Below, one piece after another: positions 1,602 to 31,438 of a stretch of 33,697 nucleotides of DNA. How positions within the stretch are numbered: position 1 is the stretch's first letter; every line of letters begins with the position of its first letter. The notes under the pieces are model-generated. The model made no database searches, was not told where the DNA came from, and worked only from the letters and a program-made list of their open reading frames with translations. The DNA comes from Pseudanabaena biceps PCC 7429 (GTDB lineage: Bacteria > Cyanobacteriota > Cyanobacteriia > Pseudanabaenales > Pseudanabaenaceae): the NCBI RefSeq assembly GCF_000332215.1, contig NZ_ALWB01000029.1, forward strand, positions 1 to 33,697, given 5' to 3'. The translations under genes and the position numbers were made by a program.

Positions 1602-1726
1602 AAGCTATCCTATTGGATTTGAAGATGGTTGGGGAGGCATACTCCTTTGGGATGAGCTTTCCACAAATCATTGAGGATTGCTATAGTCTGAGAAAACAGT
1701 TTTAAGGTATTTGTAAGGTATTTGTC

Positions 1727-2560
1727 ATGCAGCAAGAACCAATCCCATCGACTGCAAATCAAGATTTATCTCAAGAAAGTATGGAGGAAAATGACTCGGA
1801 TTTTTTGTTAACCCCTGAACAGGAGGCGGCGATGATGACTACCTATGGAGCGGATACGGAGGATCCACGATTTGAGCTTCCAGATCCCGACAATCCTCCA
1901 GACAGTGATGCCACTGCGAAATCTTCACTAGACAGCGATCGCCATCCTCAGATGGGAGACAAGGCTAAGTCCGATAAAACCGCATTTCATAATAATTACG
2001 TGGGCTACATGGACTTGTTTGCGGACAAGCAGACGGTAATGAAGTATCTGGATGCCCATCAAGGTTGGTTTAGGCGTTGCGCTCATCCTTTTAAAGCCGA
2101 TCCGATTGGGACAACAGGATATGCCATGGGGGTGGGGCAAGTGGGAGCCATGGGCTTTCAAGTCGATGCTAGGGTGGGGCTGGATTTGTTGCCTCCCGAT
2201 GAAAATTCAACCTATCGGATTGTGACTATCCCCATCCCCAACCAACCACCGCAGGGCTATGAGGTGGATTTTCAGGCGGAGATGCGTCTGGAGGAAAAAA
2301 CTGTAGATTTACAGGCAGGATCGGCATCAGGGGGAACGGCGATCATGACTAGCATTGAGTGGGACTTGGATATTGTCGTATCGCTACAATTTCCGCCATT
2401 TATCCTGCGCTTGTCTCAAGATATTCTGCAAAAAACGGGGGATGGGGTGCTCGGTTTTGTTGTCAAACGGGTTTCTAAAAGCCTTACGGCTAAGGTGCAA
2501 GACGACTTTCATAGAACCCATGCAATTAAGGTTCCGAAGCAGATTAAGCTGAGAAGATAG
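1727..2560 (+). CDS. DUF1997 family protein
   Basis: 277 residues. The N-terminal ~85 residues are acidic and low-complexity (Glu/Asp/Ser/Pro rich) and probably disordered. Residues about 88-265 form the DUF1997 domain, recognised from FADKQTVMKYLDAHQGWFRR, 'HPFKADPIGTTGYAMGVGQVG' near residues 120-140, and a C-terminal 'LQFPPFILRLSQDILQKTGDGVL' region. The family is widespread in cyanobacteria and plastids and has a lipid-binding-like beta fold by inference, but no firm function. An AAGG ribosome site precedes the ATG. The next gene follows after 16 nt, so it probably leads a three-gene transcript with the GvpF/L and M20 genes. Confidence 0.8.
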   Translation: MQQEPIPSTANQDLSQESMEENDSDFLLTPEQEAAMMTTYGADTEDPRFELPDPDNPPDSDATAKSSLDSDRHPQMGDKAKSDKTAFHNNYVGYMDLFADKQTVMKYLDAHQGWFRRCAHPFKADPIGTTGYAMGVGQVGAMGFQVDARVGLDLLPPDENSTYRIVTIPIPNQPPQGYEVDFQAEMRLEEKTVDLQAGSASGGTAIMTSIEWDLDIVVSLQFPPFILRLSQDILQKTGDGVLGFVVKRVSKSLTAKVQDDFHRTHAIKVPKQIKLRR

Positions 2561-2576
2561 CCCTCTACGTTTAATC

Positions 2577-3269
2577 ATGCTCTATACCTATGCGATTTTG
2601 CTTGCACCTGTTCCCGAAAATAAACCTTTGGGAATTAAGGGGAAATCGATTCAATATTTGCCATGCGATCGCTTGGTGGCGGCGATCGAGGCGGATGTGG
2701 ATATTGAAGCCTTGAAATTGCTACCTGAATCGGCACTAATGCAAGCGATCGTGCTACACGATCGCCTAATTTGTGAATTATTTAGCGAACGCACCCTCTT
2801 ACCTCTGCGTTTTGGGACTGCCTTTGTGTCGATCGAGGCTTTAGAAGCTTATTTACGGACTGAATCCGTAAAATTACTGGCAAATTTACAAAAATTAGAG
2901 GGATATGCGGAGTTTTTAATTACAGGATCGGCGATCGCGCCCAAGGCGGAAGCGGCGAAGAACCTCAAGGGCAAAGACTATCTCTTAGCCAAGCGATCGC
3001 AATATCTACAACAGGAACAATGGCGATCGCAATTGCAACAGGAAGCCCTTGGCTATCTGCAAATCCTTAGCGCCAATTTAAGCCCTGAATCTCAAGCAGA
3101 ATTTCAGCAGGTGGAAACGCAAGGCTCAGAAACCCTGCGCGTTTATGCATTATTACCGCGATCGCAGGTCGAACTTATCCAAAAAGCATTGCAATCTTGG
3201 GAATCTCAGCATTCCCATTGGCAGATCGCTTGGAGTCAAGCTTTACCGCCCTATCATTTTTTGAACTAA
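2577..3269 (+). CDS. GvpF/GvpL-family gas-vesicle-type protein
   Basis: 230 residues. Family hallmarks are the N-terminal YTYAILLAPVP, the central LLPLRFGTAF (about residues 74-83), and the downstream GKDYLLAKRSQYL helix (about 131-143), with a C-terminal ferredoxin-like half ending in LPPYHFLN. GvpF/GvpL proteins are accessory proteins of gas-vesicle assembly that contact the GvpA subunit. No gvpA, gvpC, gvpN, gvpJ or gvpK lies in this window, so the gene is isolated here. It sits 16 nt after the DUF1997 gene and 32 nt before the M20 gene. It may serve a gas vesicle cluster elsewhere or be a diverged paralogue with another role. Confidence 0.85.
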   Translation: MLYTYAILLAPVPENKPLGIKGKSIQYLPCDRLVAAIEADVDIEALKLLPESALMQAIVLHDRLICELFSERTLLPLRFGTAFVSIEALEAYLRTESVKLLANLQKLEGYAEFLITGSAIAPKAEAAKNLKGKDYLLAKRSQYLQQEQWRSQLQQEALGYLQILSANLSPESQAEFQQVETQGSETLRVYALLPRSQVELIQKALQSWESQHSHWQIAWSQALPPYHFLN

Positions 3270-3301
3270 GATCGGTGCAATAGTCGCGCTGTTAATCCGT
3301 C

Positions 3302-4516
3302 ATGTCTTTTGCTACCACCACTTCCCCCACCCATACAAATTTTCAGATTCGTCCTGATATCCTCGAACTGCAACCTAGCCTCGTTCAATGGCGTAGGGAC
3401 TTTCATCGCTTCCCCGAAATAGGGTTTCACGAACGCCGTACATCTATGGCTATCGCTGAGAAGTTAACGGCTTGGGGAATTCCCCATCAAACGGAGATTG
3501 CGAAAACAGGTATTGTCGCGACAATTGTTGGGAAAAAGCAGGGACAGCAAAAGGTGTTAGCCATCCGTGCCGATATGGATGCGCTCCCAATTCAAGAAGA
3601 AAATATCATCGGTTATAAATCCCAGATCGATAACATGATGCATGCCTGCGGTCACGATGGACATACGGCGATCGCGCTTGGTGCGGCAAAATATCTATGG
3701 GAACGGGCGGATTTTAGCGGTACGGTGAAAATTATTTTTCAGCCTGCTGAGGAGGGACCTGGGGGCGCAAAACCGATGATTGAAGCGGGGGTACTCGAAA
3801 ACCCCAAGGTTGATGCCTTGATTGGTTTGCATATTTGGAATAATTTGCCCCTCGGTACGGTCGGCGTGCGATCGGGAGCCTTGATGGCGGCGACGGAATA
3901 CTTCCATTGCAAAATTATTGGACGGGGAGGACATGGAGCCTTGCCCCATCAAACCATTGATTCCATTTTAGTTGCTTCTCAAGTGGTAAATGCCATTCAT
4001 GCCATCGTATCGCGCAATGTAAGCCCTCTCGAATCCGCTGTGATTAGCATTGGGGAATTCCATGCGGGTTCCGCGACAAATGTTATTGCTGATTCTGCGC
4101 GGATTAGTGGCACGGTCAGATTTTTTAACCCTGCCGTTGGCGCGAAGTTAGCTTTGCGGTTGGAAGAGACGATCGCTGGAATTTGCGCGGCTCATGGGGC
4201 TTCCTATGAACTTAAATATACAAAGCTCTACCCTGCGGTAATTAACGATCGCGCGATCGCGGAATTAGTGCGCTCCGTTGCCGAAACCGTAATCGAAACT
4301 CCCGCTGGCATCGTTCCTGAATGTCAAACTATGGGGGGAGAAGACGTATCTTTCTTTTTGGAAGCTGTCCCTGGATGCTATTTCTTTCTCGGTTCTGCTA
4401 ATCCTGACAAGGGTTTAGCCTATCCTCACCATCATCCCCGATTTAACTTCGATGAGACGGTTTTGGCGACTGGGGTGGAGATATTTGCCCGTTGTGTGGA
4501 GAAGTTTTTGACTTAA
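3302..4516 (+). CDS. M20 family metallo-amidohydrolase (hippurate/IAA-amino acid hydrolase type)
   Basis: 404 residues. This is a dinuclear metal-dependent enzyme that cleaves amide bonds of N-acyl amino acids or similar substrates; the exact substrate cannot be read from sequence. Landmarks are FHRFPEIGFHE near the start (about 32-42), AIRADMDALPIQE, the metal-binding cluster MHACGHDGHT (about 113-122), PAEEGPGGAKPMIEAG (about 149-164), a dimerisation domain with GGHGALPHQTID, and the C-terminal TMGGEDVSFFLE with the final ligand HHHPRF. Length is normal for the family. It is cytoplasmic, with no signal peptide. It is the last gene of the DUF1997-GvpF/L-M20 run and ends 5 nt before a strong double hairpin. 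Confidence 0.9.
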   Translation: MSFATTTSPTHTNFQIRPDILELQPSLVQWRRDFHRFPEIGFHERRTSMAIAEKLTAWGIPHQTEIAKTGIVATIVGKKQGQQKVLAIRADMDALPIQEENIIGYKSQIDNMMHACGHDGHTAIALGAAKYLWERADFSGTVKIIFQPAEEGPGGAKPMIEAGVLENPKVDALIGLHIWNNLPLGTVGVRSGALMAATEYFHCKIIGRGGHGALPHQTIDSILVASQVVNAIHAIVSRNVSPLESAVISIGEFHAGSATNVIADSARISGTVRFFNPAVGAKLALRLEETIAGICAAHGASYELKYTKLYPAVINDRAIAELVRSVAETVIETPAGIVPECQTMGGEDVSFFLEAVPGCYFFLGSANPDKGLAYPHHHPRFNFDETVLATGVEIFARCVEKFLT

Positions 4517-4520
4517 TACC

Positions 4521-4610
4521 AAAGCCCAAAAGTAAAAGCCTTGCTAAGCAAGGCTTTTACTTTTGGGCTTTGAGAAAAGGTTTGCTACGCAAACCCTTTT
4601 CTCAAAGCCC
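4521..4610 (+). terminator. Back-to-back double hairpin after the M20 gene
   Basis: Hairpin 1 (4521-4571) is a perfect 24-bp stem with loop TAA. Its right arm overlaps hairpin 2 (4565-4610), a 21-22 bp stem with loop TAC and one bulged base. Hairpin 2 recurs almost base for base at 28104-28148. The position right after the M20 stop fits transcription termination, but the copy elsewhere shows it is also a mobile or copied repeat. Confidence 0.7.
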
Positions 4611-4620
4611 GTTTCACGTT

Positions 4621-4723
4621 ATACCAATTCCCAAAAGTGTGGCTACACTTTTGGGAATTAAAACCCAAATTCAGTAAGGGTTTTAAAATCACAAAATGGC
4701 TACGCCATTTTGTGATTTGGTAG
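4621..4723. repeat. B-type palindromic element, reverse orientation
   Basis: Starts with ATACCAATT and ends with a degenerate TTGGTAGTA. Two hairpins (TCCCAAAAGTGT with its complement, and ATCACAAAATGGC, loop TAC, with its complement) flank a spacer that is the reverse complement of the B-type spacer seen at 31340-31370. It abuts another hairpin at 4724. Confidence 0.7.
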
Positions 4724-4770
4724 TAATCAAGAGCATACTGCCCGCGTAGCGGGCAGTATGCTCTTGATTA
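4724..4770. terminator. Perfect 22-bp hairpin, loop GTA
   Basis: The two arms, starting at TAATCAAGAGCATACTG, pair over 22 bp around the tip GCCCGC-GTA-GCGGGC. It overlaps the TAA stop (4768-4770) of the minus-strand gene, so it probably ends that transcript. The same tip occurs in the A-type element at 31621-31719. Confidence 0.65.
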
Positions 4771-5781
4771 CAAGCTTTTCATGTCTAATTGGAGAAATCG
4801 ATCTACGCCTTGGTACATCCAATAAAGCGGCATTTTCGGATCGGCACTAGTTTTTTGGAAACCCAAAGCCAGACATAGCTCGGCATAACTGGGATGAATG
4901 ATTAGCGTATACATATCCCAGAGATTAGGAAAGTCCTGCTGCATTTGGGCGAGAGTTTTTTGGGAGTCAATCAAAAGGCTAGTTTGGGAAGCTTGGCGAT
5001 ATTTGCTATCGATTACCCAACTGCGCACAAAAAGAGAACGACAGGTTGTATCTCCTGCTAAAGCGATTTGAAAGGGATCGACATCCGCAACTTGGCTCAA
5101 ATGCAGTCCACGACTGGGGGGCTCAAAAAATTTAATTTCCGATTCGCGTTTAGTCGGATAGAAAGCATAAAATCCAATGGGATTTTGGTTATCGCTGCGC
5201 CGCAGCACCCGCAATCCCGTTGCATATTGATTTGCCCAATCGCGGAGAATATTGGCAATGCGATAGGTAACCGCATCGTGATTACGATTGAGCCAGTTGT
5301 AATTGCTAGCTAACAAATTGGCGATCGGAATCGCGTCACTGCGGGGAGCAAAGGCATCGATCGCAAAGTTAACATTTGCGTCTTGGCTGTCAGCTTTGAG
5401 GAGATCCGATGGCAGATTAAATTTAATTTGGGTGCAGTTGCCATCAAACTGTTTTTGGATTAGCCCCAGATCGACTAACTTATTGAGCATCATTCCTGCC
5501 GAGCGATCGCCGCCACGATCTTTATCGCTATAAAACACCTCTGATGCTTCAAGGCAACTACATTCCACCCATCCCTGAGGAAAGGATAATTCTGTCAGGG
5601 GCGATTTGGGAAGAATTTTGCGGGATTGGCAATCTTTTAAAAACAAATAAAGCGATAGTCGCACAAAACATTCGGCTCTGCGCCTCGTCATTCCTATGTG
5701 CCGCAGGAGGATTGTCACATAATGCTGCTGGAGTGATGGGGGAAGCCATTGGTCGATGGCTTCAGGACGGTATGCACTCAC
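4768..5781 (-). CDS. Uncharacterised protein: helical N-terminus plus GNAT-like C-terminus
   Basis: About 337 residues from a GTG at 5781. The frame stays open further upstream but would run through a 22-bp hairpin repeat (5796-5843), so a longer start is unlikely. An ATG at 5691 (MTRRRAECFVRL) is the other candidate. The N-terminal half is helical and may hold a winged helix (MMLNKLVDLGLIQKQF). The C-terminal ~160 residues read like a GNAT acetyltransferase fold: NPIGFYAFYP, a long beta-helix stretch, and the late LALGFQKTSAD typical of the last GNAT strands. The acetyl-CoA P-loop is not clearly present, so catalysis is uncertain. It diverges from the phospholipid-type gene set at 5993. Confidence 0.6.
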   Translation of the reverse strand: MSAYRPEAIDQWLPPSLQQHYVTILLRHIGMTRRRAECFVRLSLYLFLKDCQSRKILPKSPLTELSFPQGWVECSCLEASEVFYSDKDRGGDRSAGMMLNKLVDLGLIQKQFDGNCTQIKFNLPSDLLKADSQDANVNFAIDAFAPRSDAIPIANLLASNYNWLNRNHDAVTYRIANILRDWANQYATGLRVLRRSDNQNPIGFYAFYPTKRESEIKFFEPPSRGLHLSQVADVDPFQIALAGDTTCRSLFVRSWVIDSKYRQASQTSLLIDSQKTLAQMQQDFPNLWDMYTLIIHPSYAELCLALGFQKTSADPKMPLYWMYQGVDRFLQLDMKSL

Positions 5782-5795
5782 GATATTTATCACGA

Positions 5796-5843
5796 TATTT
5801 ATATATAAAGCAGGGGCTTTAGCCCCTGCTTTATATATAAATA
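5796..5843. repeat. AT-rich 22-bp hairpin between divergent genes
   Basis: Perfect 22-bp stem, TATTTATATATAAAG then CAGGGGC, loop TTTA, then the complement. It lies 14 nt upstream of the likely GTG start of the minus-strand gene and 150 nt upstream of the plus-strand gene. That position is unusual for a terminator, so a regulatory or repeat nature is more likely. Confidence 0.6.
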
Positions 5844-5992
5844 TAACAAAATTTTCCAAAAACTTCGCCCTACTTCGACCTACTTCGATCTGTTTCGACG
5901 ATCTTCTAGGCGATCGCAGCTTCATCGCTCTAGTCATTCTCATTACATAGGTACAGGCTGCATGATGAGCACATGAGTTTTTGGAGCAGCTA

Positions 5993-6619
5993 ATGGTTTC
6001 CATTTATCAATGCAAAGCGCAGTTTCAGGATTATCTCCGCCCCCTAGTCAATCAATTTGCATCTTGGCAAATTACCCCCAACCAAGTAACGATCGCCGCT
6101 CTGTTGTTATCGAGTGTGACAGGGCTAGCAATTGTGCAAAGTACACAATGGGCTACAGCTTCGCTTCCCAGTACGCAGGCGGTTTTATTGTCCGTACCTC
6201 TAGTTTTGCTAGGACGGATGGCGCTCAATGCTATGGATGGAATGCTTGCCCGCGAACATGATCGGACAACTAAATTGGGCTGCATTCTCAACGAATTGGG
6301 CGATGTTTTAGCAGATGTCTCTCTCTACTTGCCCTTTAGTTTGATTGCGGGAGTTTCTGCTCCCTTGATAATCGGAATTGTCATTTTGGCGATCGCCTCA
6401 GAAATGGTGGGAGTATTGGGATATGCGATTGACGCTCAACGCCATTATGAGGGACCAATGGGAAAAAGCGATCGCGCCTTTGTCTTTGGAGCGCTGGGCT
6501 TAATCCTCGGCTTGGGCATTGCGCCTGCTCAATGGCTAAGTATCTTTTTGAGTGGAGTTATTTGTCTGCAAATTTGGACAACGATCAACCGCATTCAAGG
6601 AATGCTGAAGGAGGTATAG
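5993..6619 (+). CDS. CDP-alcohol phosphatidyltransferase family membrane protein
   Basis: 208 residues from the ATG at 5993, chosen over an in-frame TTG at 5981 because a GGAG site lies 6 nt before it. Integral membrane enzymes of this family transfer a phosphatidyl group from a CDP-alcohol to an acceptor alcohol. The signature is present as DGMLAR (82-87), G96 and D104. However, the usual first and third aspartates are both Asn (N79, N100), giving N-x2-DG-x2-AR-x8-G-x3-N-x3-D. Several hydrophobic segments surround it. The next gene begins 3 nt after the stop. With CdsA-, PlsC- and methyltransferase-like neighbours it probably takes part in making a non-standard phospholipid; the acceptor is unknown. 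Confidence 0.82.
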   Translation: MVSIYQCKAQFQDYLRPLVNQFASWQITPNQVTIAALLLSSVTGLAIVQSTQWATASLPSTQAVLLSVPLVLLGRMALNAMDGMLAREHDRTTKLGCILNELGDVLADVSLYLPFSLIAGVSAPLIIGIVILAIASEMVGVLGYAIDAQRHYEGPMGKSDRAFVFGALGLILGLGIAPAQWLSIFLSGVICLQIWTTINRIQGMLKEV

Positions 6620-6621
6620 GC

Positions 6622-7611
6622 ATGGAAATGAATATGGGCATGAATGGCTTAGGTGGCTTTAGTCTTAATTTGGCAACTCCAGTTCTGTATACCCTTGCGG
6701 GAGTTTTTGGACTGCTAGCGATCGCCTCAGTTACGGTCATTGGCTTAGGGTTTCGTCATCCTCAAACTGACTATAGCGAACTCAAAGATCGCATCAAATC
6801 TTGGTGGATTATGGTGTTCCTGTTCAGTTTGGCAATTGCGTTGAAGCATCCTGTTTCGATCATCTTTTTTATGCTGCTTAGCTTCATCGCGCTACGAGAA
6901 TACCTCTCTCTCATTCCCACGCGCATTAGCGATCGGCGCGTCTTACTATGGGCTTACCTCGCGCTCTTCCTGCAATATTTCTGGATCTATATTGGCTGGT
7001 ATGGCATGTTTTTGATCTTCATTCCCATCTACATTTTTTTGTTATTACCGATGCGCATGTTGCTCGATGGTGAAACCCAAGGCTATTTAAACGCGATCGG
7101 GACGCTCCATTGGGGACTGATGCTGAATGTCTATACGATCAGCCATCTCTCTTACCTTGCCATACTGCCCCTGAGTGGTAACCCGATCGCAGGTGGCACA
7201 GGCTTATTAGTCTATCTATTACTAATGACCGAAATTAACGATATCGCTCAATACCTCTTCGGTAAGCTATGCGGTCGCCATCCCATTATTCCAAAGGTCA
7301 GCCCCAAGAAAACCGTCGAAGGCTTGATTGGGGGCATCGTCACAACCACGGGATTGGCGATCGCCATGGCTCCATTGCTGACTCCCTTCGATCTAATTCA
7401 TGCTGCTGGTCTGGGGCTGCTCTTGAGTCTGACGGGATTTATCGGTGATGTCAATATCTCGGCGCTAAAACGAGATTTAGGAATTAAAGATAGCGGTAAT
7501 CTGATCCCTGGACATGGAGGCATTTTAGATCGCATTGACAGCCTCACCTATACGGCTCCTCTCTTCTTCCATTTTACTGTTTATTTCTACTATCACGGAC
7601 AATTATTATGA
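6622..7611 (+). CDS. CdsA-like phosphatidate cytidylyltransferase
   Basis: 329 residues. The ATG at 6622 has a strong AAGGAGGT site upstream; the open frame further upstream overlaps the previous gene. The family makes CDP-diacylglycerol from phosphatidic acid and CTP in the inner membrane. The full CDP-DAG synthase signature is near the C-terminus: SALKRDLGIKDSGNLIPGHG followed by GILDRID (about 287-313). The upstream EINDIAQYLFGKLCGRHPI and SPKKTVEGLIGG are also conserved in CdsA. About eight membrane segments are visible. It overlaps the PlsC-like gene by 4 nt (ATGA). A cyanobacterium needs one housekeeping CdsA for phosphatidylglycerol; this one, clustered with other lipid genes, looks like an accessory paralogue. 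Confidence 0.88.
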   Translation: MEMNMGMNGLGGFSLNLATPVLYTLAGVFGLLAIASVTVIGLGFRHPQTDYSELKDRIKSWWIMVFLFSLAIALKHPVSIIFFMLLSFIALREYLSLIPTRISDRRVLLWAYLALFLQYFWIYIGWYGMFLIFIPIYIFLLLPMRMLLDGETQGYLNAIGTLHWGLMLNVYTISHLSYLAILPLSGNPIAGGTGLLVYLLLMTEINDIAQYLFGKLCGRHPIIPKVSPKKTVEGLIGGIVTTTGLAIAMAPLLTPFDLIHAAGLGLLLSLTGFIGDVNISALKRDLGIKDSGNLIPGHGGILDRIDSLTYTAPLFFHFTVYFYYHGQLL

Positions 7612-8264
7612 GACTCATTCTCAATGTCATCTTCTATCTAACTGCAAAAATTATTGTATTAGTGCTTGGACTACGTATCCGCCATCGCGAACGATTGCCC
7701 ACAAATGGTCCTGCAATTATCGTCGCCAATCACAATAGTCATCTGGACACGATTGTTCTCTTTTCACTCTTCCCTTTGTCGATGATGCGGCATCTTCGTC
7801 CCTTGGCAAATGAGCAGTATTTTCTCAACCAAAATCCTTGCTTAGCTTGGTTTGCCCGTCACATTCTGCATATTATTCCCGTCTCTAGTGATGCTAATGC
7901 TGGTAGCTGCTGCGATCGCCATGGCGCTCACCGCAATTTTTTTAAAAGCTGTGCCACGGCTCTAGCGGAAAAGCAAATCCTGATTCTTTATCCCGAAGGG
8001 ACGAGGGGAACACCCGAACACCTCAGCGAATTTAGAACTGGGATCGTCCATTTAGCGAAACTAAACCCTGATGTGCCAATTGTCCCCATTTTTCTGCACG
8101 GTCTGGGCAAAGCTCTTCCTAAAGGTGATTTTCTGATAGTGCCCTTGCTCTGCTGGATCTGCATCGGTGAATCGATGTATTGGAATGGTCAGAAACAGGG
8201 CTTTCTCCAGCAACTAAGCGATCGCATACAGGCTCTCTCAGACGAAAGAATGCTCTCTTTCTAA
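7608..8264 (+). CDS. PlsC-like 1-acyl-glycerol-3-phosphate acyltransferase
   Basis: 218 residues. The LPLAT/PlsC signature is clear: NHNSHLD (catalytic HX4D, H42 and D47) and the substrate-binding YPEGTRG (E130-R133). The family moves an acyl chain onto lysophosphatidic acid or a related acceptor at the membrane. An N-terminal hydrophobic segment (about 3-22) anchors it. The stretch between the two motifs contains an unusual SCCDR cluster. The start overlaps the stop of the cytidylyltransferase gene by 4 nt, so the two are translationally coupled. It is short compared with housekeeping PlsC and is probably a pathway-specific acyltransferase. A B/A-type repeat follows within 5 nt. Confidence 0.87.
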   Translation: MRLILNVIFYLTAKIIVLVLGLRIRHRERLPTNGPAIIVANHNSHLDTIVLFSLFPLSMMRHLRPLANEQYFLNQNPCLAWFARHILHIIPVSSDANAGSCCDRHGAHRNFFKSCATALAEKQILILYPEGTRGTPEHLSEFRTGIVHLAKLNPDVPIVPIFLHGLGKALPKGDFLIVPLLCWICIGESMYWNGQKQGFLQQLSDRIQALSDERMLSF

Positions 8265-8268
8265 TCTA

Positions 8269-8432
8269 ATACCAATTCCCAAAATGGCGTTGCCATTTTG
8301 GGAATCTCAAAACCTTACTAGGGGCGCAATTAAATATAAACCCCAAAACCTGTAGCGCACGCGCAGCCTGCGCTACAGGTTCTGATTCTGGGTTTTAATT
8401 ATGCCCAGCTACTTAATGTCTAATACCAATTC
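8269..8432. repeat. Composite B-type/A-type palindromic repeat
   Basis: The left half (8269 on) is a B-type end: ATACCAATT, hairpin CCCAAAATGGC with loop GTT, and the conserved spacer. It switches at about 8322 into an A-type unit with a 13-bp hairpin (8347-8381) and the A-type end TTTTAATTATGCCCAGCTAC. A lone B-type end ATACCAATT follows at 8424-8432. This looks like one element inserted into, or recombined with, another. It lies between the PlsC-like gene and the methyltransferase. Confidence 0.65.
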
Positions 8433-8450
8433 CTTCTCTAAGAGGTCATC

Positions 8451-9320
8451 ATGCTACAAAAATCATCGCCCACTTACGAACAACTCCTTCACCCCTTACC
8501 TATCTGGAATCCCAAGGCTTGGTATTACGGATTGATGAATTTCTCCCTCCAGACTATTGGCAAACTATCCAATGGTATTCAGATCGGCTTTCAGTATGGA
8601 TTTGATTCGGGTGTGATGTTGGAATATGTCTACCACAATAGACCGAGTGGATTTACGCTCTTAGGAAAGTTGATTGACTGGTTCTATCTTAATTCTCAGG
8701 GATGGCGCGGGATTAGATGCAGATCTTTACTGATGAAAGCTACACTACGCGAGGTACTCCAGTCCTATCTCCCAAAAAATATCCCCTGCCATTTGCTCGA
8801 TGTTGCCTGTGGTGGTGGTCGCTACGATCTAGAGGTATTGCAAGAGTTTTCATCGGCAGCGATCGCCGCAACTTTGCGCGATTACAAAATCGAGAATGTA
8901 GCTAAGGCAAGGCAGTTAGCCGACCAATTTGGCGTTAAGGTGCAGATCGAGCAAGCTGATGCGTTTAGCGATGCCGATCTAGAGCGCGTGCAGCCGAAAC
9001 CGAATGTGGTAATTGTGTCGGGCTTACATGAAATCTTGCCTAATGATGGATTAATCGAACACCACTTCCAACAACTCTATCGAACCCTCGATACGAATGG
9101 AACTCTGGTTTTCACAATTCAGCCGCAGCACCCTCAGTTAGAGATGATTGCGCGGACTCTGCCTGCCCATACGGGTTTGCCTTGGGTGATGCGTGTACGC
9201 TCTTGGGAATTAATTCACCACTGGGCTAGGGCTGCTGGTTTTCAAGACTTTCAGGTACAAATGGAACCTAATGGGATTTTTGGTGTGGTGACTGCGAAGA
9301 AGAATCCTTTAACATTGTAA
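8451..9320 (+). CDS. Methyltransf_20-type (PF12147-like) class I SAM methyltransferase
   Basis: 289 residues, with AGAGGT just before the ATG. The N-terminal ~95 residues carry the marker sequence of this family (FDSGVMLEYVYHNRPSG and LIDWFYLNSQGWRGIRCRS). A Rossmann methyltransferase domain follows, with SAM motif LLDVACGGGRYDLEVL (about 115-130) and IVSGLHEILPNDG as the motif IV region. From general knowledge, the same family occurs in proteobacteria as the C-terminal half of alpha/beta-hydrolase fusions next to PlsC-, CdsA- and CDP-alcohol transferase genes, which matches the genes here. No hydrolase domain is attached in this copy. Its substrate is unknown; a lipid or lipid headgroup is the natural guess from context. 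Confidence 0.82.
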   Translation: MLQKSSPTYEQLLHPLPIWNPKAWYYGLMNFSLQTIGKLSNGIQIGFQYGFDSGVMLEYVYHNRPSGFTLLGKLIDWFYLNSQGWRGIRCRSLLMKATLREVLQSYLPKNIPCHLLDVACGGGRYDLEVLQEFSSAAIAATLRDYKIENVAKARQLADQFGVKVQIEQADAFSDADLERVQPKPNVVIVSGLHEILPNDGLIEHHFQQLYRTLDTNGTLVFTIQPQHPQLEMIARTLPAHTGLPWVMRVRSWELIHHWARAAGFQDFQVQMEPNGIFGVVTAKKNPLTL

Positions 9321-9445
9321 TAGCTAATTACTTCGCCACTGGTTAGGTCGCGATCGCGTGCTTCGGTTTCTTCGAGTCAGTCGTTAGTAATGCGATCGCC
9401 CAGATCTTGTTCTATTTCCTGACGCAAGGCGCGATAGTTGGACAT
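9321..9445 (-). pseudogene. Decayed addiction-module antitoxin copy
   Basis: From an ATG at 9445, seven nt after the XisI stop, the frame reads MSNYRALRQEIEQDLG and reaches ...ITND, then TGA (9377-9379). It continues as LEETEARDRDLTSGEVISY. The intact antitoxin at 10505-10735 has NDWLEEAEARDHDLTSGEVI at the same place, so the Trp codon TGG has become TGA. Nucleotides 9321-9385 and 10545-10610 are visibly homologous. The 5' part does not match the intact gene, so this is a rearranged remnant. Confidence 0.7.
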
Positions 9446-9449
9446 ATGT

Positions 9450-9782
9450 TTAAGCTACTCCATAGCCTGTATAGGGTCTTTTGTAGGGAGGATGTAAACC
9501 CAGTACGATGTCTTCTTTGGGAATACCGAACTCTTGTAATTCTTGTCCTACGTCAATATCAGTTATATTTTGCTGTAGCCAGATTTTTCCGTCTTTGATG
9601 TCAAAATGCAGAACAGTATGATAGACGCGCTTCAAGCCTTTCCAGCCAATACGCATCAGTTGATAGCGATCGCGCACGGTGTCAAAAATCAACTCACTCT
9701 GTACATCGTCTTGAGTTTTAAAATGACTATGCTTTTCCAGAAGATTTTGAATGTATAGACGGTAATTTTCTAGTTTATCCAT
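9450..9782 (-). CDS. xisI: XisI family protein (fdxN-element excision controlling factor)
   Basis: 110 residues matching XisI over its whole length: DKLENYRLYIQNLLEKH, IFDTVRDRYQLMRIGWKG, HFDIKDGKIWLQQNITD and a C-terminus GIPKEDIVLGLHPPYKRP then YTGYGVA. In Anabaena, xisH and xisI control excision of the fdxN element by XisF. Many cyanobacteria carry multiple xisH/xisI copies without that element, and their present role is unclear. The usual partner xisH is absent next to this copy. Instead it is flanked by a deleted MazF-like toxin upstream and a decayed antitoxin downstream, placing it inside a degraded addiction island. Confidence 0.9.
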   Translation of the reverse strand: MDKLENYRLYIQNLLEKHSHFKTQDDVQSELIFDTVRDRYQLMRIGWKGLKRVYHTVLHFDIKDGKIWLQQNITDIDVGQELQEFGIPKEDIVLGLHPPYKRPYTGYGVA

Positions 9783-9788
9783 TTGCGG

Positions 9789-9906
9789 TTATTGCAAATC
9801 AAGAATAGTTTTTAGGGCTTGGGCTAGTTGTTGGATATACGGTTCTTCTAGTTGCCCGATCGCTTTGAGAATTCTAGTTTTATCAATTACTCGAATCTGT
9901 TACCAT
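9789..9906 (-). pseudogene. MazF/PemK-like toxin with internal deletion
   Basis: The antitoxin at 9900-10130 ends ...GEIQW-stop, and the sequence ATGGTAA (9906-9900) overlaps that stop exactly as a coupled toxin start would. Directly after it the frame shifts, and 36 codons read QIRVIDKTRILKAIGQLEEP then YIQQLAQALKTILDLQ-stop (9899-9789). This resembles the C-terminal end of MazF/PemK toxins. About 70-80 codons that would normally join the two pieces are missing. The family assignment of the short tail rests on pattern recall, so a different small toxin is possible. Confidence 0.6.
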
Positions 9907-10130
9907 TGGATTTCTCCGCGCACTAGTTTTTCTTCGTAGTCCTCTAGATTTTTGAGATAGTCACTAAAGTCGGATTCGCTGATGGTTAGGGATTCGCTAA
10001 ATTGTGTCCATTGCTCCCAACGTTGGTTGTCTTGTTTGAGCATGAGAAAGTCAATAAAATCACTTACTTCCTGAGCGAGTTCAGTAGGAAGATGTTGGAT
10101 TTTGGCGATCGCTAGGTCTTGTACTGTCAT
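9900..10130 (-). CDS. MazE/DUF2281-like antitoxin, toxin partner deleted
   Basis: 76 residues, MTVQDLAIAKIQHLPTELAQ... ending in DYEEKLVRGEIQW. The N-terminal helix pair (LPTELAQEVSDFIDFLMLK) and the acidic tail ending in GEIQW are typical of DUF2281-like antitoxins paired with MazF-type toxins in cyanobacteria. Such antitoxins bind and neutralise the toxin and usually repress their own operon. The toxin reading frame beside it is broken. Just upstream, 10127-10189 reads KFVLPLPDDFDETLTDFEEY then L-stop, with no start, its TGA overlapping this ATG. That may be the tail of another lost gene. Confidence 0.7.
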   Translation of the reverse strand: MTVQDLAIAKIQHLPTELAQEVSDFIDFLMLKQDNQRWEQWTQFSESLTISESDFSDYLKNLEDYEEKLVRGEIQW

Positions 10131-10198
10131 AAATATTCCTCAAAGTCGGTTAATGTTTCATCGAAGTCATCGGGTAATGGCAAAACGAATTTTCAAGA

Positions 10199-10495
10199 TT
10201 ACTTCCGTTTGCGCCAATAATTAGGTTTTTGCTTGTGATGCGCGATCGCTAAAATATAAATTTGCTCACCATCTAAAAGTCGGTATAGAAGCGAATACGG
10301 GAATTTTGATATCACTAATCGCCGAACTGAGCCTCGAAATTTTAAGCCGAGTTCTGGATAACGGGTTAGTAAGTTGGTTGAGGACTCTACGGTATTTAAA
10401 AACTCTAGGGCGATCGCTTTGTCTTGAGTTTTGTAGTAGCCAATCGCGTCGTCTAGCTCTTGTTGGGCTAATGGATGAAAAATGATTTCTTTCAT
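10199..10495 (-). CDS. RelE/ParE superfamily toxin
   Basis: 98 residues. Typical ParE-type layout: MKEIIFHPLAQQELDDAIGY, a helical hairpin (YKTQDKAIALEFLNTVESS), RYPELGLKFRGSVRRLVISK, then FPYSLLYRLLDGEQIYILAI and the closing AHHKQKPNYWRKR. ParE toxins poison DNA gyrase, while RelE relatives cut ribosome-bound mRNA; the FPYSLLYR and AIAHHKQKPNYW motifs fit the ParE side. The start is 9 nt downstream of the antitoxin stop, the usual antitoxin-first arrangement. All core elements are present, so the toxin is probably functional. Confidence 0.87.
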   Translation of the reverse strand: MKEIIFHPLAQQELDDAIGYYKTQDKAIALEFLNTVESSTNLLTRYPELGLKFRGSVRRLVISKFPYSLLYRLLDGEQIYILAIAHHKQKPNYWRKRK

Positions 10496-10504
10496 AGCAA
10501 GTTT

Positions 10505-10735
10505 CTAGGCTAGGGATGCGCGAAGGTCTGCGAATACTTGGCTGGCGGGATAGCCAATCACTTCGCCACTGGTTAGATCATGGTCGCGTGCTTCGGCTTC
10601 TTCGAGCCAGTCGTTTTCAACTTCGCGATCGATTTCGTTGGTTTTGCCTAGTTGTTCGATTAGGCGGGTGAATAGATGAATTAGGGAGTCTTGGGGTAAT
10701 GCAAGTACTTCGTTTTCTAGTTGTTCGAGTGTCAT
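10505..10735 (-). CDS. Addiction module antitoxin (Unstab_antitox-like)
   Basis: 76 residues: MTLEQLENEVLALPQDSLIH at the N-terminus, then an acidic WLEEAEARDHDLTSGEVIGY region and the C-terminal PASQVFADLRASLA. That last part matches the 'addiction module component' family that pairs with ParE toxins. It is placed directly before the ParE gene. It should neutralise the toxin and autoregulate the pair. A broken relative lies at 9321-9445, so this antitoxin family has been duplicated in the island. Confidence 0.82.
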   Translation of the reverse strand: MTLEQLENEVLALPQDSLIHLFTRLIEQLGKTNEIDREVENDWLEEAEARDHDLTSGEVIGYPASQVFADLRASLA

Positions 10736-10807
10736 TGTTTAGTTCCTCAAGTTTGGCAATCTGTGGTGGAAGTGTTTTTATTATAGTTGCTGTTAGAGGT
10801 GCATATT

Positions 10808-13800
10808 TTAGCTTTCTGCTTCCAAAAATCCTTTGACTGTCTCTACGGGGATGCTGACCAATGGATTGTTGAATATGGCTTTCAAGGCTTCGATGCCGCC
10901 AGTTTTTAGGGCATTGACTAATCTTGCTTTGAGGGTGGGATTGCGCTTGATTTCTTGGTGGATGGTTTCTGCGATGGTAGCTTCACTGGGGTTGGTTTTG
11001 GCTAGTTGATTAAGCAATTCCTGAACTTCTTTTGTGGCTTCGGCTAGGTTTTGTTTGGGAACTTCAGTTTTTTGAACAATTTTCTGCTCGTTGACAGTGC
11101 CGCCGAGGTTGGCGATATTGGCTGCACCAAAGTTTGCGCCGCTAAAATTATTGTTAATTTCTGTCATGTGTATTATGTTTCCTTGTGGGTTTGATAGGAC
11201 TTTATCATTGTTGTTTTCTTCCTGCAAAGGTGTTTGGGCTATGTCGTAGTTGTAGTATTTGCATCGGGCTTGGATGGCAGTGATGACTGAGAGGGCTTCT
11301 TGGCTGGCTTCTGTGGGGATGAGGGTGAGGAGATGGGGAAGTTGTTGGGTGAGTGTGGGTAAGTTGCGATCGGCTTGAGCAATTTGACATAATGACTTTG
11401 CTGCATTCTCACGAACACCAGATATTAAATCTTTTAGAGATTGAGTGAGGGATTCAATGGACTTTTCGCTTTCAGTTTTCCCTAAAGCATTTGCTGAAAT
11501 CTTACGCACAGAAGAGTCTTTATCTTTAAGAGACTGAATGAGAGGTTCAACAACATTATCGCCACCAATTTCTCCTAATACCTCTGCCGCAAATCCTCTT
11601 ACATATGAGTCTTCATCTTTGAGAGTTTGAATGAGTAATGCGATAGCTTTATCGCTGCCAATTTTACCCAATACCTCTACTGCTTTATGATCATTTTTTA
11701 GTTGAATTAGATGTTCAGCTAAATATTCAGGGATCTTACCACCACCAATTTTTTCTAGAGCTTCTGCTGAATACATTCGTACATAAGAATCTTCATCTTC
11801 AAGAGCTTGAGTAAGCGATGGGATAGCCTTCTCACTACCAATTTTACCTAATGCCTCTGCTGCTTGCCAACGTCCACCAGAATGCTTATCTTTGAGAACT
11901 TGAATAAGAGGTTCAATGGCTTTATCACTACCGATGTTTCCTAAGATTTCTGATAATGAGGCTCGTATATATGGGTTGAGCGTATAAATATCCTTATCTT
12001 TGAGAACCTTAATTAACAAATTGATAGCTCCGTCACTAACAATTTTACCCAGCGCCTCTACTGCTTTATAATACTCAGTAGAACCTGAATTTTGATGATT
12101 TAGAAACTGAATAAGAGATTCAACAGCTTTGTCATTGCCAATTTTTCCTAGTGCTTCTGCCGCATATCTACGAACATACCGATCTTTATGTTTTAGAGCG
12201 TGAACAAGAGGGTCAACAGCCTGATCACTACCTATTTTCCCTAAAGCCTCTGCTATTTTCCAACAAGTGTCATTATAGCCTTGATTATCTTTTAGAGCCT
12301 GAACAAGAGGGGCAACAGCCTGATCACTACCTATTTTTCCTAAAGCCTCTGCTGCTTGTTCACATACATCTTCATTACGATGTTTTAGAGCTTGAATGAG
12401 AGGTTCAACAGCCTGATCATTACCTATTTTCCCCAAAGCCTCTGCTGCTTTTACACATACATCATCATTTTGATGTTTTAGTGCTTGAATGAGAGTCTTA
12501 ACAGCTTTATCACTACCAACATTTCCTAGTGCTTCTGCGGCTGTTTTACAAACACTAGGGCTTTTATGGTAGAGACGTTTAATAAGTTCTTCAATAGCCT
12601 TATCATTGCTATTGTTTCCTAATATTTGTGCTGATTTCCAACGCACATAAATGTCTTTACTATTGAGAGATTGAAAGAGGATTTTATCTGCTTTTTCACC
12701 ACGAATATTTTCTAATGAATTTACTGATTTTCTACATAATTCATGATTTTCAATCTTGAGTGATACTTTTAATAATTCGCTCGCATAATCAGACCTTGTT
12801 TCTCCTAAAAGCTCGATCGCATATAACTTCGGAATTTCCCATTCTTCTATTTCCCTCAACAACAACCCAACAGTCTTCTCCTGAAACCCATACTTCACTG
12901 CCCCAGCCAACCTCGCCCCTAACCGCAAATCCACCTCCAGCGCCAGCCTTACCACCCGCACCGCCTGCTCCTCACCCTCCACCAACTCCAACATCAACGC
13001 CAAAGGTTCCGTCCATTTCAAATAATTGAGATAGCCCTGCTGTAACCGCGCATCACTCAAACTCGGCAACAGCCCCAACAACCACTCCGCCGCATAATAT
13101 TCCTGAATCAACTGATGCCGAAACTCAATGCGGTCATTGCTAATCTGAATCAAATGATGCTTCAGCAAATCCTCCAACCACCGCCCCGCACAATCATCCG
13201 CATATTCCACCTTCTCTCGCAGAAACTCCACCAAAATCTGCTCCGCATCCCGCCGCGAAATCGCCACCTGCAATTCAGTCAGATTTTCGCCGCATGTCAT
13301 CTTAAAAGCTAGATACTGCAACAACCGCCCCCACCATGCCCGCGAATCCTTCGATAGCGTCACATCCTGCTTAATCCTGTCCCCATAGCCCACCGTAAAC
13401 GCCCGAAATACCATACCCAAATTCGGTGGAATCTGCCCCTTGAATTCTGGATGCTGAAACAACGAACAAAGCATCCATAACAACAAAGGCGTTTGCCCAA
13501 ACTCCCGCAACCGTCCCGACAACTGCCGCAACAACCTCTCCCCCTGTGTCGGCAAATATGCCATCACAAACTGCTGCATCTGCGGCTCCGTCAAGGGCTG
13601 CATCTCTAACCGCTTCGCAATCCCCAAATCCCCACCCGCACTCAACTCCCGCGTCGTAAAGATCATCGGGCAAGTTTTTTGATAAAGCTCCCGAAATTGA
13701 TTTACCATGACGCGACCGCGATCCGAAGGCAACTCATTCACCCCATCCACCAACAGCAACAACCGCCCCTGACGCAATAACTGCTTAATCCTCGCCTCAT

Positions 13801-14347
13801 TAATATCCAAGGCAGGATCGTGTTTGTGCATAAAAGCAACAATGCGATCGCATACAGACGACTCATTCGCCTCCGAGGGTAAATACCGCAACTCCACCAA
13901 TACAGGAATTTTCGCTTGCTGATGATCGTTTAACGCATTTTCCGCCTCCTGCAACAACAACCGCGCCAAAGCCATAGACTTCCCCGATCCTGGTCTACCC
14001 ACCAGCAACACATGCTCCGCCGCATACTTACAGATCCCCTCCAGCACAGGCAACCGCTCGATTTTTTCTTTTTCCCCTTCCTCTTTTTCCTTTTGACTTT
14101 CTACTTTTTCCTTGTCCACCGTCTGCACCATTAAGCCGAAGTCAAAAAAAGCAGGAGCAATGCGATCGCGTTCCCCCCGTTGCGATTCCCGTCCCGTCGC
14201 ATCCGTCAGCGTATACAAGCGCCACCACTGCTGATAAGCGCTTATCAGCGATCGCAAATAACCATCAAAACAAATCTCTACACCCATGCCGTAAATCAAC
14301 CCCGAAGGACGTAGCGGCGACAATATCTTTCCGTCAGGAATTGCCAC
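10808..14347 (-). CDS. NACHT-domain STAND NTPase with HEAT repeats and cyanobacterial C-terminal module
   Basis: 1179 residues. After a ~105-residue N-terminal part with a Lys/Glu-rich linker (78-97) comes a NACHT NTPase: Walker A GRPGSGKS (117-124), Walker B LLLLVDGVNE (196-205) and sensor IFTTRE. A helical region follows (LREFGQTPLLLWMLCSLF), then about 15-16 PBS/HEAT repeats (roughly 500-970) of the form EALGKIGSDKAVEPLIQALK. The C-terminal 120 residues (from 1060) begin MTEINNNFSGANFGAANIA and end in a helical domain with NPTLKARLVNALKTGG. I recall that tail as a recurrent cyanobacterial module, also seen alone. Bacterial NACHT proteins sense phage and trigger cell death; HEAT repeats would be the sensor. 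No nuclease, protease or TIR effector is recognisable, so the effector is unclear. Confidence 0.85.
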   Translation of the reverse strand: MAIPDGKILSPLRPSGLIYGMGVEICFDGYLRSLISAYQQWWRLYTLTDATGRESQRGERDRIAPAFFDFGLMVQTVDKEKVESQKEKEEGEKEKIERLPVLEGICKYAAEHVLLVGRPGSGKSMALARLLLQEAENALNDHQQAKIPVLVELRYLPSEANESSVCDRIVAFMHKHDPALDINEARIKQLLRQGRLLLLVDGVNELPSDRGRVMVNQFRELYQKTCPMIFTTRELSAGGDLGIAKRLEMQPLTEPQMQQFVMAYLPTQGERLLRQLSGRLREFGQTPLLLWMLCSLFQHPEFKGQIPPNLGMVFRAFTVGYGDRIKQDVTLSKDSRAWWGRLLQYLAFKMTCGENLTELQVAISRRDAEQILVEFLREKVEYADDCAGRWLEDLLKHHLIQISNDRIEFRHQLIQEYYAAEWLLGLLPSLSDARLQQGYLNYLKWTEPLALMLELVEGEEQAVRVVRLALEVDLRLGARLAGAVKYGFQEKTVGLLLREIEEWEIPKLYAIELLGETRSDYASELLKVSLKIENHELCRKSVNSLENIRGEKADKILFQSLNSKDIYVRWKSAQILGNNSNDKAIEELIKRLYHKSPSVCKTAAEALGNVGSDKAVKTLIQALKHQNDDVCVKAAEALGKIGNDQAVEPLIQALKHRNEDVCEQAAEALGKIGSDQAVAPLVQALKDNQGYNDTCWKIAEALGKIGSDQAVDPLVHALKHKDRYVRRYAAEALGKIGNDKAVESLIQFLNHQNSGSTEYYKAVEALGKIVSDGAINLLIKVLKDKDIYTLNPYIRASLSEILGNIGSDKAIEPLIQVLKDKHSGGRWQAAEALGKIGSEKAIPSLTQALEDEDSYVRMYSAEALEKIGGGKIPEYLAEHLIQLKNDHKAVEVLGKIGSDKAIALLIQTLKDEDSYVRGFAAEVLGEIGGDNVVEPLIQSLKDKDSSVRKISANALGKTESEKSIESLTQSLKDLISGVRENAAKSLCQIAQADRNLPTLTQQLPHLLTLIPTEASQEALSVITAIQARCKYYNYDIAQTPLQEENNNDKVLSNPQGNIIHMTEINNNFSGANFGAANIANLGGTVNEQKIVQKTEVPKQNLAEATKEVQELLNQLAKTNPSEATIAETIHQEIKRNPTLKARLVNALKTGGIEALKAIFNNPLVSIPVETVKGFLEAES

Positions 14348-22596: not shown

Positions 22597-22647
22597 AGTT
22601 ATTGCGATAGAGTCTATGAGAAAAATAGGGATTTGACTTCGCTCAGC

Positions 22648-22716
22648 CAATTAAAAAATAAACCCCGTAAGGTTTTGAAATTCCAAAAATGGCGTTGCCA
22701 TTTTTGGAATTGGTAT
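22648..22716. repeat. B-type element, truncated, reverse orientation
   Basis: The right end AATTGGTAT (22708-22716), a hairpin with 15-bp arms (AATTCCAAAAATGGC, loop GTT, 22679-22711) and the reverse complement of the B-type spacer (AAACCCCGTAAGGTTTTG). The second hairpin and the other end are missing; it breaks off in AATTAAAAAATAAACC. Confidence 0.65.
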
Positions 22717-22756
22717 TACTCTATCTGTTCAGAAAGCCTACTGAGAGAGGATTATT

Positions 22757-28033: not shown

Positions 28034-28103
28034 ATCAAAAGTTAGCTGTTGCCCCTCGCTTTAGGACAAAATCAAAAAACGTGAGTTCGATATAACTTGA
28101 AAT

Positions 28104-28191
28104 GGGCTTTGAGAAAAGGTTTGCTACGCAAACCCTTTCTCAAAGCCCAAAAGACGAGTGGCGGCGCAAAGCGCCGCCACTCGTCTTTTGG
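28104..28191. terminator. Double hairpin downstream of opcA
   Basis: Hairpin 1 (28104-28148) is the near-identical copy of 4565-4610 (one base fewer in the right arm). It runs directly into hairpin 2 (28147-28191), a perfect 21-bp stem with loop AAA. Hairpin 2 is 7 nt from the opcA stop, so it is well placed as the zwf-opcA terminator. Confidence 0.7.
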
Positions 28192-31130: not shown

Positions 31131-31153
31131 ATAATATTCATCGCGGAGACGTA

Positions 31154-31438
31154 ATACCAATCCCCAAAATGGCGTTGCCATTTTGGGATCTCAAAACCTT
31201 GCGGAGTTTGTTTTTTAATTCACTAAAGTGAGGCAACACTTTAGTGAATTGGTATAAAACCCTAAGACCTGCGGCGCACGCTGCGCGTGCACCGCAGGTC
31301 TTATACCAAATCACAAAATGGCTACGCCATTTTGTGATTTTAAAATCCTTACTGGGTTTGGTTTTTAATTTCCAAAAGTGTAGCCACACTTTTGGAAATT
31401 GGTATTAGATCTGGATTTTAATTATGCTGAGGTACTTA
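31154..31438. repeat. Nested palindromic elements (two B-type, one A-type)
   Basis: 31154-31255 is a full B-type element (ATACCAAT ... AATTGGTAT, two hairpins). It is followed by the left part of an A-type element with a hairpin of about 17 bp (31263-31302). A second full B-type element (31303-31405: ATACCAAAT ... AATTGGTAT) interrupts it. The A-type right end (GATCTGGATTTTAATTATG, to 31438) then resumes. Flanking TTA/TTA at the second B-type element would fit a TA target duplication. Confidence 0.75.

Follow-up and report, generated by a model that had tools for sequence, protein, structure and literature searches.

What would a cyanobacterium make with a cytidine diphosphate (CDP)-alcohol transferase, a cytidylyltransferase, an acyltransferase and a methyltransferase that are encoded side by side and apart from its housekeeping lipid genes? 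The question is raised by a contig of Pseudanabaena biceps PCC 7429 (NZ_ALWB01000029.1, assembly GCF_000332215.1; contig C29 of a 5.47-Mb genome that is 99.9% complete), analysed here over its whole length of 33,697 nucleotides and referred to as the window. An earlier note on this DNA had proposed an accessory phospholipid-type pathway formed by CDP-alcohol transferase, CdsA, PlsC and Methyltransf_20 genes, and all four were found on the + strand:

5993-6619, + strand: YnbA-type CDP-alcohol phosphotransferase, 208 amino acids (aa) (PF01066, CDP-OH_P_transf, E 2.7e-7)
6622-7611, + strand: YnbB-type phosphatidate cytidylyltransferase, 329 aa (PF01148, CTP_transf_1, E 8e-66)
7608-8264, + strand: PlsC-type lysophospholipid acyltransferase, 218 aa (PF01553, Acyltransferase, E 4e-20)
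8451-9320, + strand: S-adenosylmethionine (SAM)-dependent methyltransferase, 289 aa (PF12147, Methyltransf_20, E 6.5e-79)

The proposal is supported by a separate housekeeping set, by the recognition of the genes as a ynbABCD-type operon and by their joint inheritance. On balance, we consider that the operon probably encodes an accessory, transferable pathway for one dedicated minor glycerophospholipid.

The operon genes are not the only copies of their kind, since separate homologues of pgsA (contig C220, 120 bits), cdsA (C143, full length) and plsC (C38, scoring better than the operon acyltransferase) are present in the same genome. This rules out the alternative raised in the earlier note, that the operon is the housekeeping set for phosphatidylglycerol (PG) synthesis. 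Housekeeping CdsA was found in 26 of 26 members of the genus, including the nine that do not carry the cluster, and a second CDP-alcohol transferase lies on C244, adjoining a thiE-like gene.

Gene order is identical in all 17 carriers within the genus (15 complete, two cut by contig ends), which argues against a chance grouping. The packing had been described as one run with 3-nt spacing and a 4-nt overlap. The overlap is real (7608-7611), but the first gap is 2 nt (the TAG of the YnbA-type gene ends at 6619 and the ATG of the YnbB-type gene, with AAGGAGG ahead of it, is at 6622), and the methyltransferase gene stands outside the packed run, beginning 186 nt past the acyltransferase gene. In this strain a dispersed repeat (8267-8430) fills most of the 186 nt. 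Among relatives the acyltransferase and methyltransferase genes often overlap or sit only tens of nucleotides apart, so that the ancestral layout was probably more compact.

BLAST against Escherichia coli K-12 paired the transferase with YnbA (42% identity over 204 aa), the cytidylyltransferase with YnbB (44% over 301 aa, full length) and the methyltransferase with residues 312-582 of YnbC, its C-terminal half (38% over 273 aa). The operon cytidylyltransferase is YnbB-like rather than CdsA-like, its homology extending into the N-terminal half, whereas the housekeeping CdsA of the same genome aligns with it only over the C-terminal 137 aa; E. coli CdsA likewise aligns with YnbB only in the C-terminal half. 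The YnbA, YnbB and YnbC-methyltransferase orthologues are neighbouring and co-directional, in the order YnbA-YnbB-acyltransferase-methyltransferase. By homology, then, the four genes are a cyanobacterial version of the ynbABCD-type operon, and this operon type accounts for the similar proteobacterial sets without a settled product that the earlier note had mentioned. The ynb operon is already known and unexplained: no work on a ynbA or ynbC product was found in the open-licence literature searched, and the same literature yielded no description of the four-gene form in cyanobacteria, of its behaviour as a cassette or of the asparagine signature of its YnbA (see below).

Within Pseudanabaena the set behaves as a cassette together with a divergently transcribed gene. 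The further features needed here are as follows:

4516-9450, no strand: cassette extent, as set by the empty site in the close relative G014
4768-5790, - strand: divergent gene, ~340 aa, co-occurring with the operon; no Pfam/PDB match
8267-8430, no strand: dispersed repeat resembling a miniature inverted-repeat transposable element (MITE), with related copies in the window and in G014

The set is carried by 17 of 26 genomes of the genus. Explaining its presence and absence on the CdsA gene tree takes seven changes, of which well-supported branches force at least five, with gains and losses indistinguishable. The divergent gene is present in the same 17 of 38 genomes of the order as the methyltransferase and in no others, and adjoins the operon wherever the contig is long enough; Pfam and PDB searches with it gave no match, and the start of a longer, 411-aa open reading frame is not conserved. 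Genes flanking these five are common to few strains only. The nearest relative, G014, is 98% identical in CdsA and lacks the cassette: its contig C471 is collinear with window positions 1660-4515 and 9451-9915 at 94-95%, and in place of 4516-9450 it has 2.2 kb of small accessory genes, XisI and VapC-like ones among them. The cassette lies on a plasmid beside nif genes in Pseudanabaena sp. ABRG5-3 and on a 4.5-Mb, chromosome-sized contig in genome G013. The four genes and the divergent gene are, in sum, a patchily distributed, transferable cassette.

The earlier note had also suggested phylogenies of the four proteins. In each of the four protein trees the cyanobacterial sequences form a single group; cyanobacterium G273 falls outside the group of G321 and Pseudanabaena in the YnbA, YnbB and methyltransferase trees, and the acyltransferase tree also joins G321 with Pseudanabaena. 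Both G273 and G321 lie outside the genus and also carry the four-gene form, with the gene order unchanged. This agreement fits inheritance of the four genes as a unit in cyanobacteria. These were quick trees whose deep placements are weak and point to no donor of the operon.

The YnbA-type transferase (PF01066, 32 bits against a cut-off of 22) departs from its superfamily at two metal-binding positions. The superfamily signature, D1xxD2G1xxAR...G2xxxD3xxxD4, has been termed absolutely conserved; D1-D3 bind metal, D4 is the likely base and a D4N change nearly abolishes activity (PMC4634129). YnbA instead reads N79xxDGxxAR(x8)GxxxN100xxxD104xxxD108. Asparagine occupies D1 and D3 in 61 of 61 sequences of our alignment (A2) and also in divergent Bacteroides and Melainabacteria members, while the two other CDP-alcohol transferases of the genome keep every signature aspartate. 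D2, D4, an extra aspartate four residues on (D108) and the CDP-binding N30/T33 are invariant. The sequences were gathered with the patterns DGMLARE[HYC] and Y[EAD]GP[MFL]GKSD, which cover the adjacent DG and in some cases K158 but neither of the asparagine positions, so that these residues were not selected for.

The AlphaFold model of YnbA (pLDDT 92.8) finds its best solved folds among phosphatidylinositol-phosphate (PIP) synthases (Z 18-19), with phosphatidylglycerol-phosphate (PGP) synthase at Z 12, and among NCBIfam and PDB entries it is most closely related to archaetidylinositol-phosphate and PIP synthases. In Mycobacterium tuberculosis PgsA1, R155 and R195 are needed for inositol-phosphate binding (PMC4634129) and R94 is critical (PMC6506517). 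In a profile alignment the first two correspond to YnbA R161 (kept in 61/61) and R200 (60/60), but R94 aligns with Val/Ile/Ala in the YnbA family. Taken together, these residues suggest that the acceptor likely carries a phosphate and is probably not inositol phosphate. A search for the inositol-phosphate synthase PF01658 gave nothing in the P. biceps genome or in E. coli, and was positive in 6 of 14 control genomes; with such a synthase missing from the genome, inositol from the standard route is an unlikely headgroup.

The other three enzymes keep their motifs. The C-terminal cytidylyltransferase signature KR..KD..PGHGG..DR.D is intact in the window protein and in all 87 full-length YnbB relatives, the translated acyltransferase has HX4D (as NHNSHLD) and PEGT (as YPEGTRG), and the methyltransferase (model pLDDT 90.9) has an intact SAM-binding motif, LLDVACGGGRY.

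We infer that the set makes a lipid, and with this the reactions, their order and the target of methylation, as follows. The PlsC-type enzyme would convert lysophosphatidic acid to phosphatidic acid, or else reacylate a lysolipid; the YnbB-type enzyme would turn phosphatidic acid into a pool of CDP-diacylglycerol (CDP-DAG) distinct from the cell's main supply; the YnbA-type enzyme would transfer the phosphatidyl group to a small alcohol already bearing a phosphate, probably not inositol phosphate; and the methyltransferase would act last, methylating the headgroup. In proteobacteria a phosphatase would strip the headgroup phosphate and a hydrolase would trim the acyl chains, steps that in cyanobacteria would be missing or performed by other enzymes. 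The PAP2/DSP phosphatase that proteobacterial sets add fits a phosphorylated intermediate. Several points weigh against this scheme: YnbB is the only member with demonstrated activity (PMC6362211, PMC7018664), the cyanobacterial cluster has no phosphatase of its own, the methyltransferase fold matches generic, mixed small-molecule methyltransferases and indicates no substrate, and YnbA, short of two of the four metal-ligand aspartates, cannot be taken to be active.

Of the other explanations, the one that survives best, though we hold it unlikely, is a route to an MPIase-like glycolipid, in which the YnbB-type enzyme would mainly make a precursor of the N-acetylglucosamine-PP-DAG (GlcNAc-PP-DAG) type and the other genes would tailor it. 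E. coli YnbB makes CDP-DAG in vitro, its overproduction raises MPIase, and it cannot substitute for the bulk-phospholipid CdsA (PMC6362211, PMC7018664). However, in E. coli the job is done by CdsA, and MPIase stays normal when ynbB is knocked out (PMC6362211); such a route also leaves no role for YnbA, whose conserved acceptor pocket resembles that of PIP synthases.

PG is the main cyanobacterial phospholipid, and the enzyme classes of the operon match the PG pathway. This would speak for a backup or stress-induced second PG route with YnbA as an alternative PGP synthase, which we nonetheless rate a little below the glycolipid route, given that YnbA is structurally nearer PIP synthases than PGP synthase and breaks the family signature, that PG synthesis calls for no methyltransferase, and that YnbB failed to complement cdsA (PMC6362211). 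Inositol phospholipid synthesis, that is, a PIP synthase followed by methylation of phosphatidylinositol, could draw on the closest relatives of YnbA and its retained phosphate-binding arginines, but is quite improbable in view of the missing PF01658 enzyme, also in the ynbA-bearing E. coli, and the loss of D1, D3 and the R94 equivalent. Least probable is that YnbA is no longer a transferase and the cluster a lipid-binding, remodelling or regulatory set, as the asparagines at D1 and D3 in every examined YnbA with a clear signature might suggest, because invariant D2, D4, D108, N30/T33 and acceptor arginines are unexpected in a dead enzyme.

The dedicated minor phospholipid pathway thus remains our preferred interpretation. 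More tentatively, and as a possibility we would not yet favour, the YnbA family may constitute a mechanistically distinct class of CDP-alcohol phosphotransferases whose product would be a minor phospholipid not yet described but common to at least ten bacterial phyla and made by E. coli K-12 as well, the genes travelling as a mobile cassette in cyanobacteria. The core set has such a spread, and the E. coli operon is annotated yet product-less in the open papers searched. Strains 98% alike in CdsA that differ in the presence of the cassette, with an empty site, offer a clean natural comparison for lipidomics, and a double Asp-to-Asn change amid "absolutely conserved" aspartates poses a concrete enzymological question.

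With the YnbA alignment as query, GTDB genomes gave at least 589 relatives, of which the best 80 loci were analysed; several are metagenome bins, in which contig assignment can be wrong. They span Pseudomonadota, Cyanobacteriota, Melainabacteria, Campylobacterota, Bacillota, Planctomycetota, Acidobacteriota, Nitrospirota, Elusimicrobiota, Thermodesulfobacteriota, Gemmatimonadota, Latescibacterota and Bdellovibrionota. YnbA, YnbB and the acyltransferase occur together in 66 of these 80 loci, a core present in at least ten phyla; 44 have these three alone, 17 the full set, and the four-gene form is limited to the three Pseudanabaena loci. Acyltransferase orthologues adjoin YnbA/YnbB in most loci, many other bacteria also keeping the gene in their ynb-type cluster. 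The family is rare in Cyanobacteria (at E 1e-6 it was found in 17 of 386 genomes, the majority belonging to the Melainabacteria-like family) and absent from the 50,697 phage records searched.

Some of these loci differ in detail. Melainabacterial YnbA proteins (L083, L085, L086 and L087) have a flavodoxin-like C-terminal extension and Ile for Arg in the AR motif, and their gene order is YnbA, methyltransferase, YnbB, acyltransferase. A divergent cyanobacterial cluster (L082, genome G343, 7506-12170) encodes a YnbA homologue with Ser, Asp, Asn and Gly at the signature positions; having lost D4 too, it is possibly decayed or has another function. In Nitrosomonas mobilis (L120, 9032-9601) a PgsA-like CDP-alcohol transferase lies directly past the YnbA-YnbB-acyltransferase set. 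A scan of twenty neighbour genes in other genomes for a hint of the headgroup gave no consistent companion; DUF2238, FKBP, amidohydrolase, sulfotransferase and ceramidase-like proteins neighbour single or few loci. The sulfotransferase inside one cluster (L165, 3278-4372) and the ceramidase-like protein adjoining another (L147, 11608-12402) are possible headgroup or lipid-class hints there. An anti-phage defence system was considered and rejected, PADLOC giving only a weak, generic methyltransferase match to mads_2 and the phage records yielding no YnbA.

Around the cassette, XisI, DUF2281 and ParE-type genes lie just past its end (9450-10495, - strand) and the matching site of G014 has more XisI, VapC-like and DUF433-like genes, which points to a hotspot for small accessory genes. 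MITE-like, partly palindromic repeats occur at 1464-1559, 4520-4771, 8267-8430, 22643-22718, 28091-28153 and 31152-31407, from families with dozens of related copies in G014. Farther on, a gene at 10808-14347 (- strand) encodes 1179 aa with a NACHT domain followed by many HEAT repeats, resembling a STAND-type NTPase, with internal DNA repeats at 11429-12642.

Among known systems, E. coli K-12 ynbABCD shares the YnbA, YnbB and YnbC-methyltransferase orthologues in the same order. The window set differs in having a PlsC-type acyltransferase between YnbB and the methyltransferase, and in that neither the alpha/beta-hydrolase half of YnbC nor the YnbD PAP2/DSP phosphatase was found in its cluster or in those of its genus relatives. 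Fuller proteobacterial plasmid loci comprise YnbA, YnbB, the acyltransferase, a hydrolase-methyltransferase fusion (YnbC), a PAP2/DSP phosphatase (YnbD) and a small membrane protein. The plasmid sets of Citrobacter TSA-1 and E. coli 2015C-3121 share the YnbA-YnbB-acyltransferase-methyltransferase order, but their methyltransferase is fused to the hydrolase and that of Citrobacter TSA-1 is accompanied by the phosphatase and small membrane protein. Three-gene YnbA-YnbB-acyltransferase sets (Methylococcaceae, Beggiatoa kin, Nitrospira, Bacillales and others) share the core, and cyanobacterial YnbA and YnbB branch nearby in the trees; unlike the window set, they have no methyltransferase (44 of the best 80 loci). 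The mycobacterial and Renibacterium PIP synthases (PgsA1, RsPIPS) resemble YnbA in fold, CDP-binding motif, catalytic D4 and acceptor-phosphate arginines, at only 14-19% identity, and differ at D1, D3 and R94. Finally, the Bacteroides inositol-lipid cluster BT_1522-BT_1526 is likewise a bacterial accessory cluster built on a CDP-alcohol transferase (PMC9246714), but its BT_1523 keeps the full DX2DG...GX3DX3D signature and adjoins an inositol-phosphate synthase.

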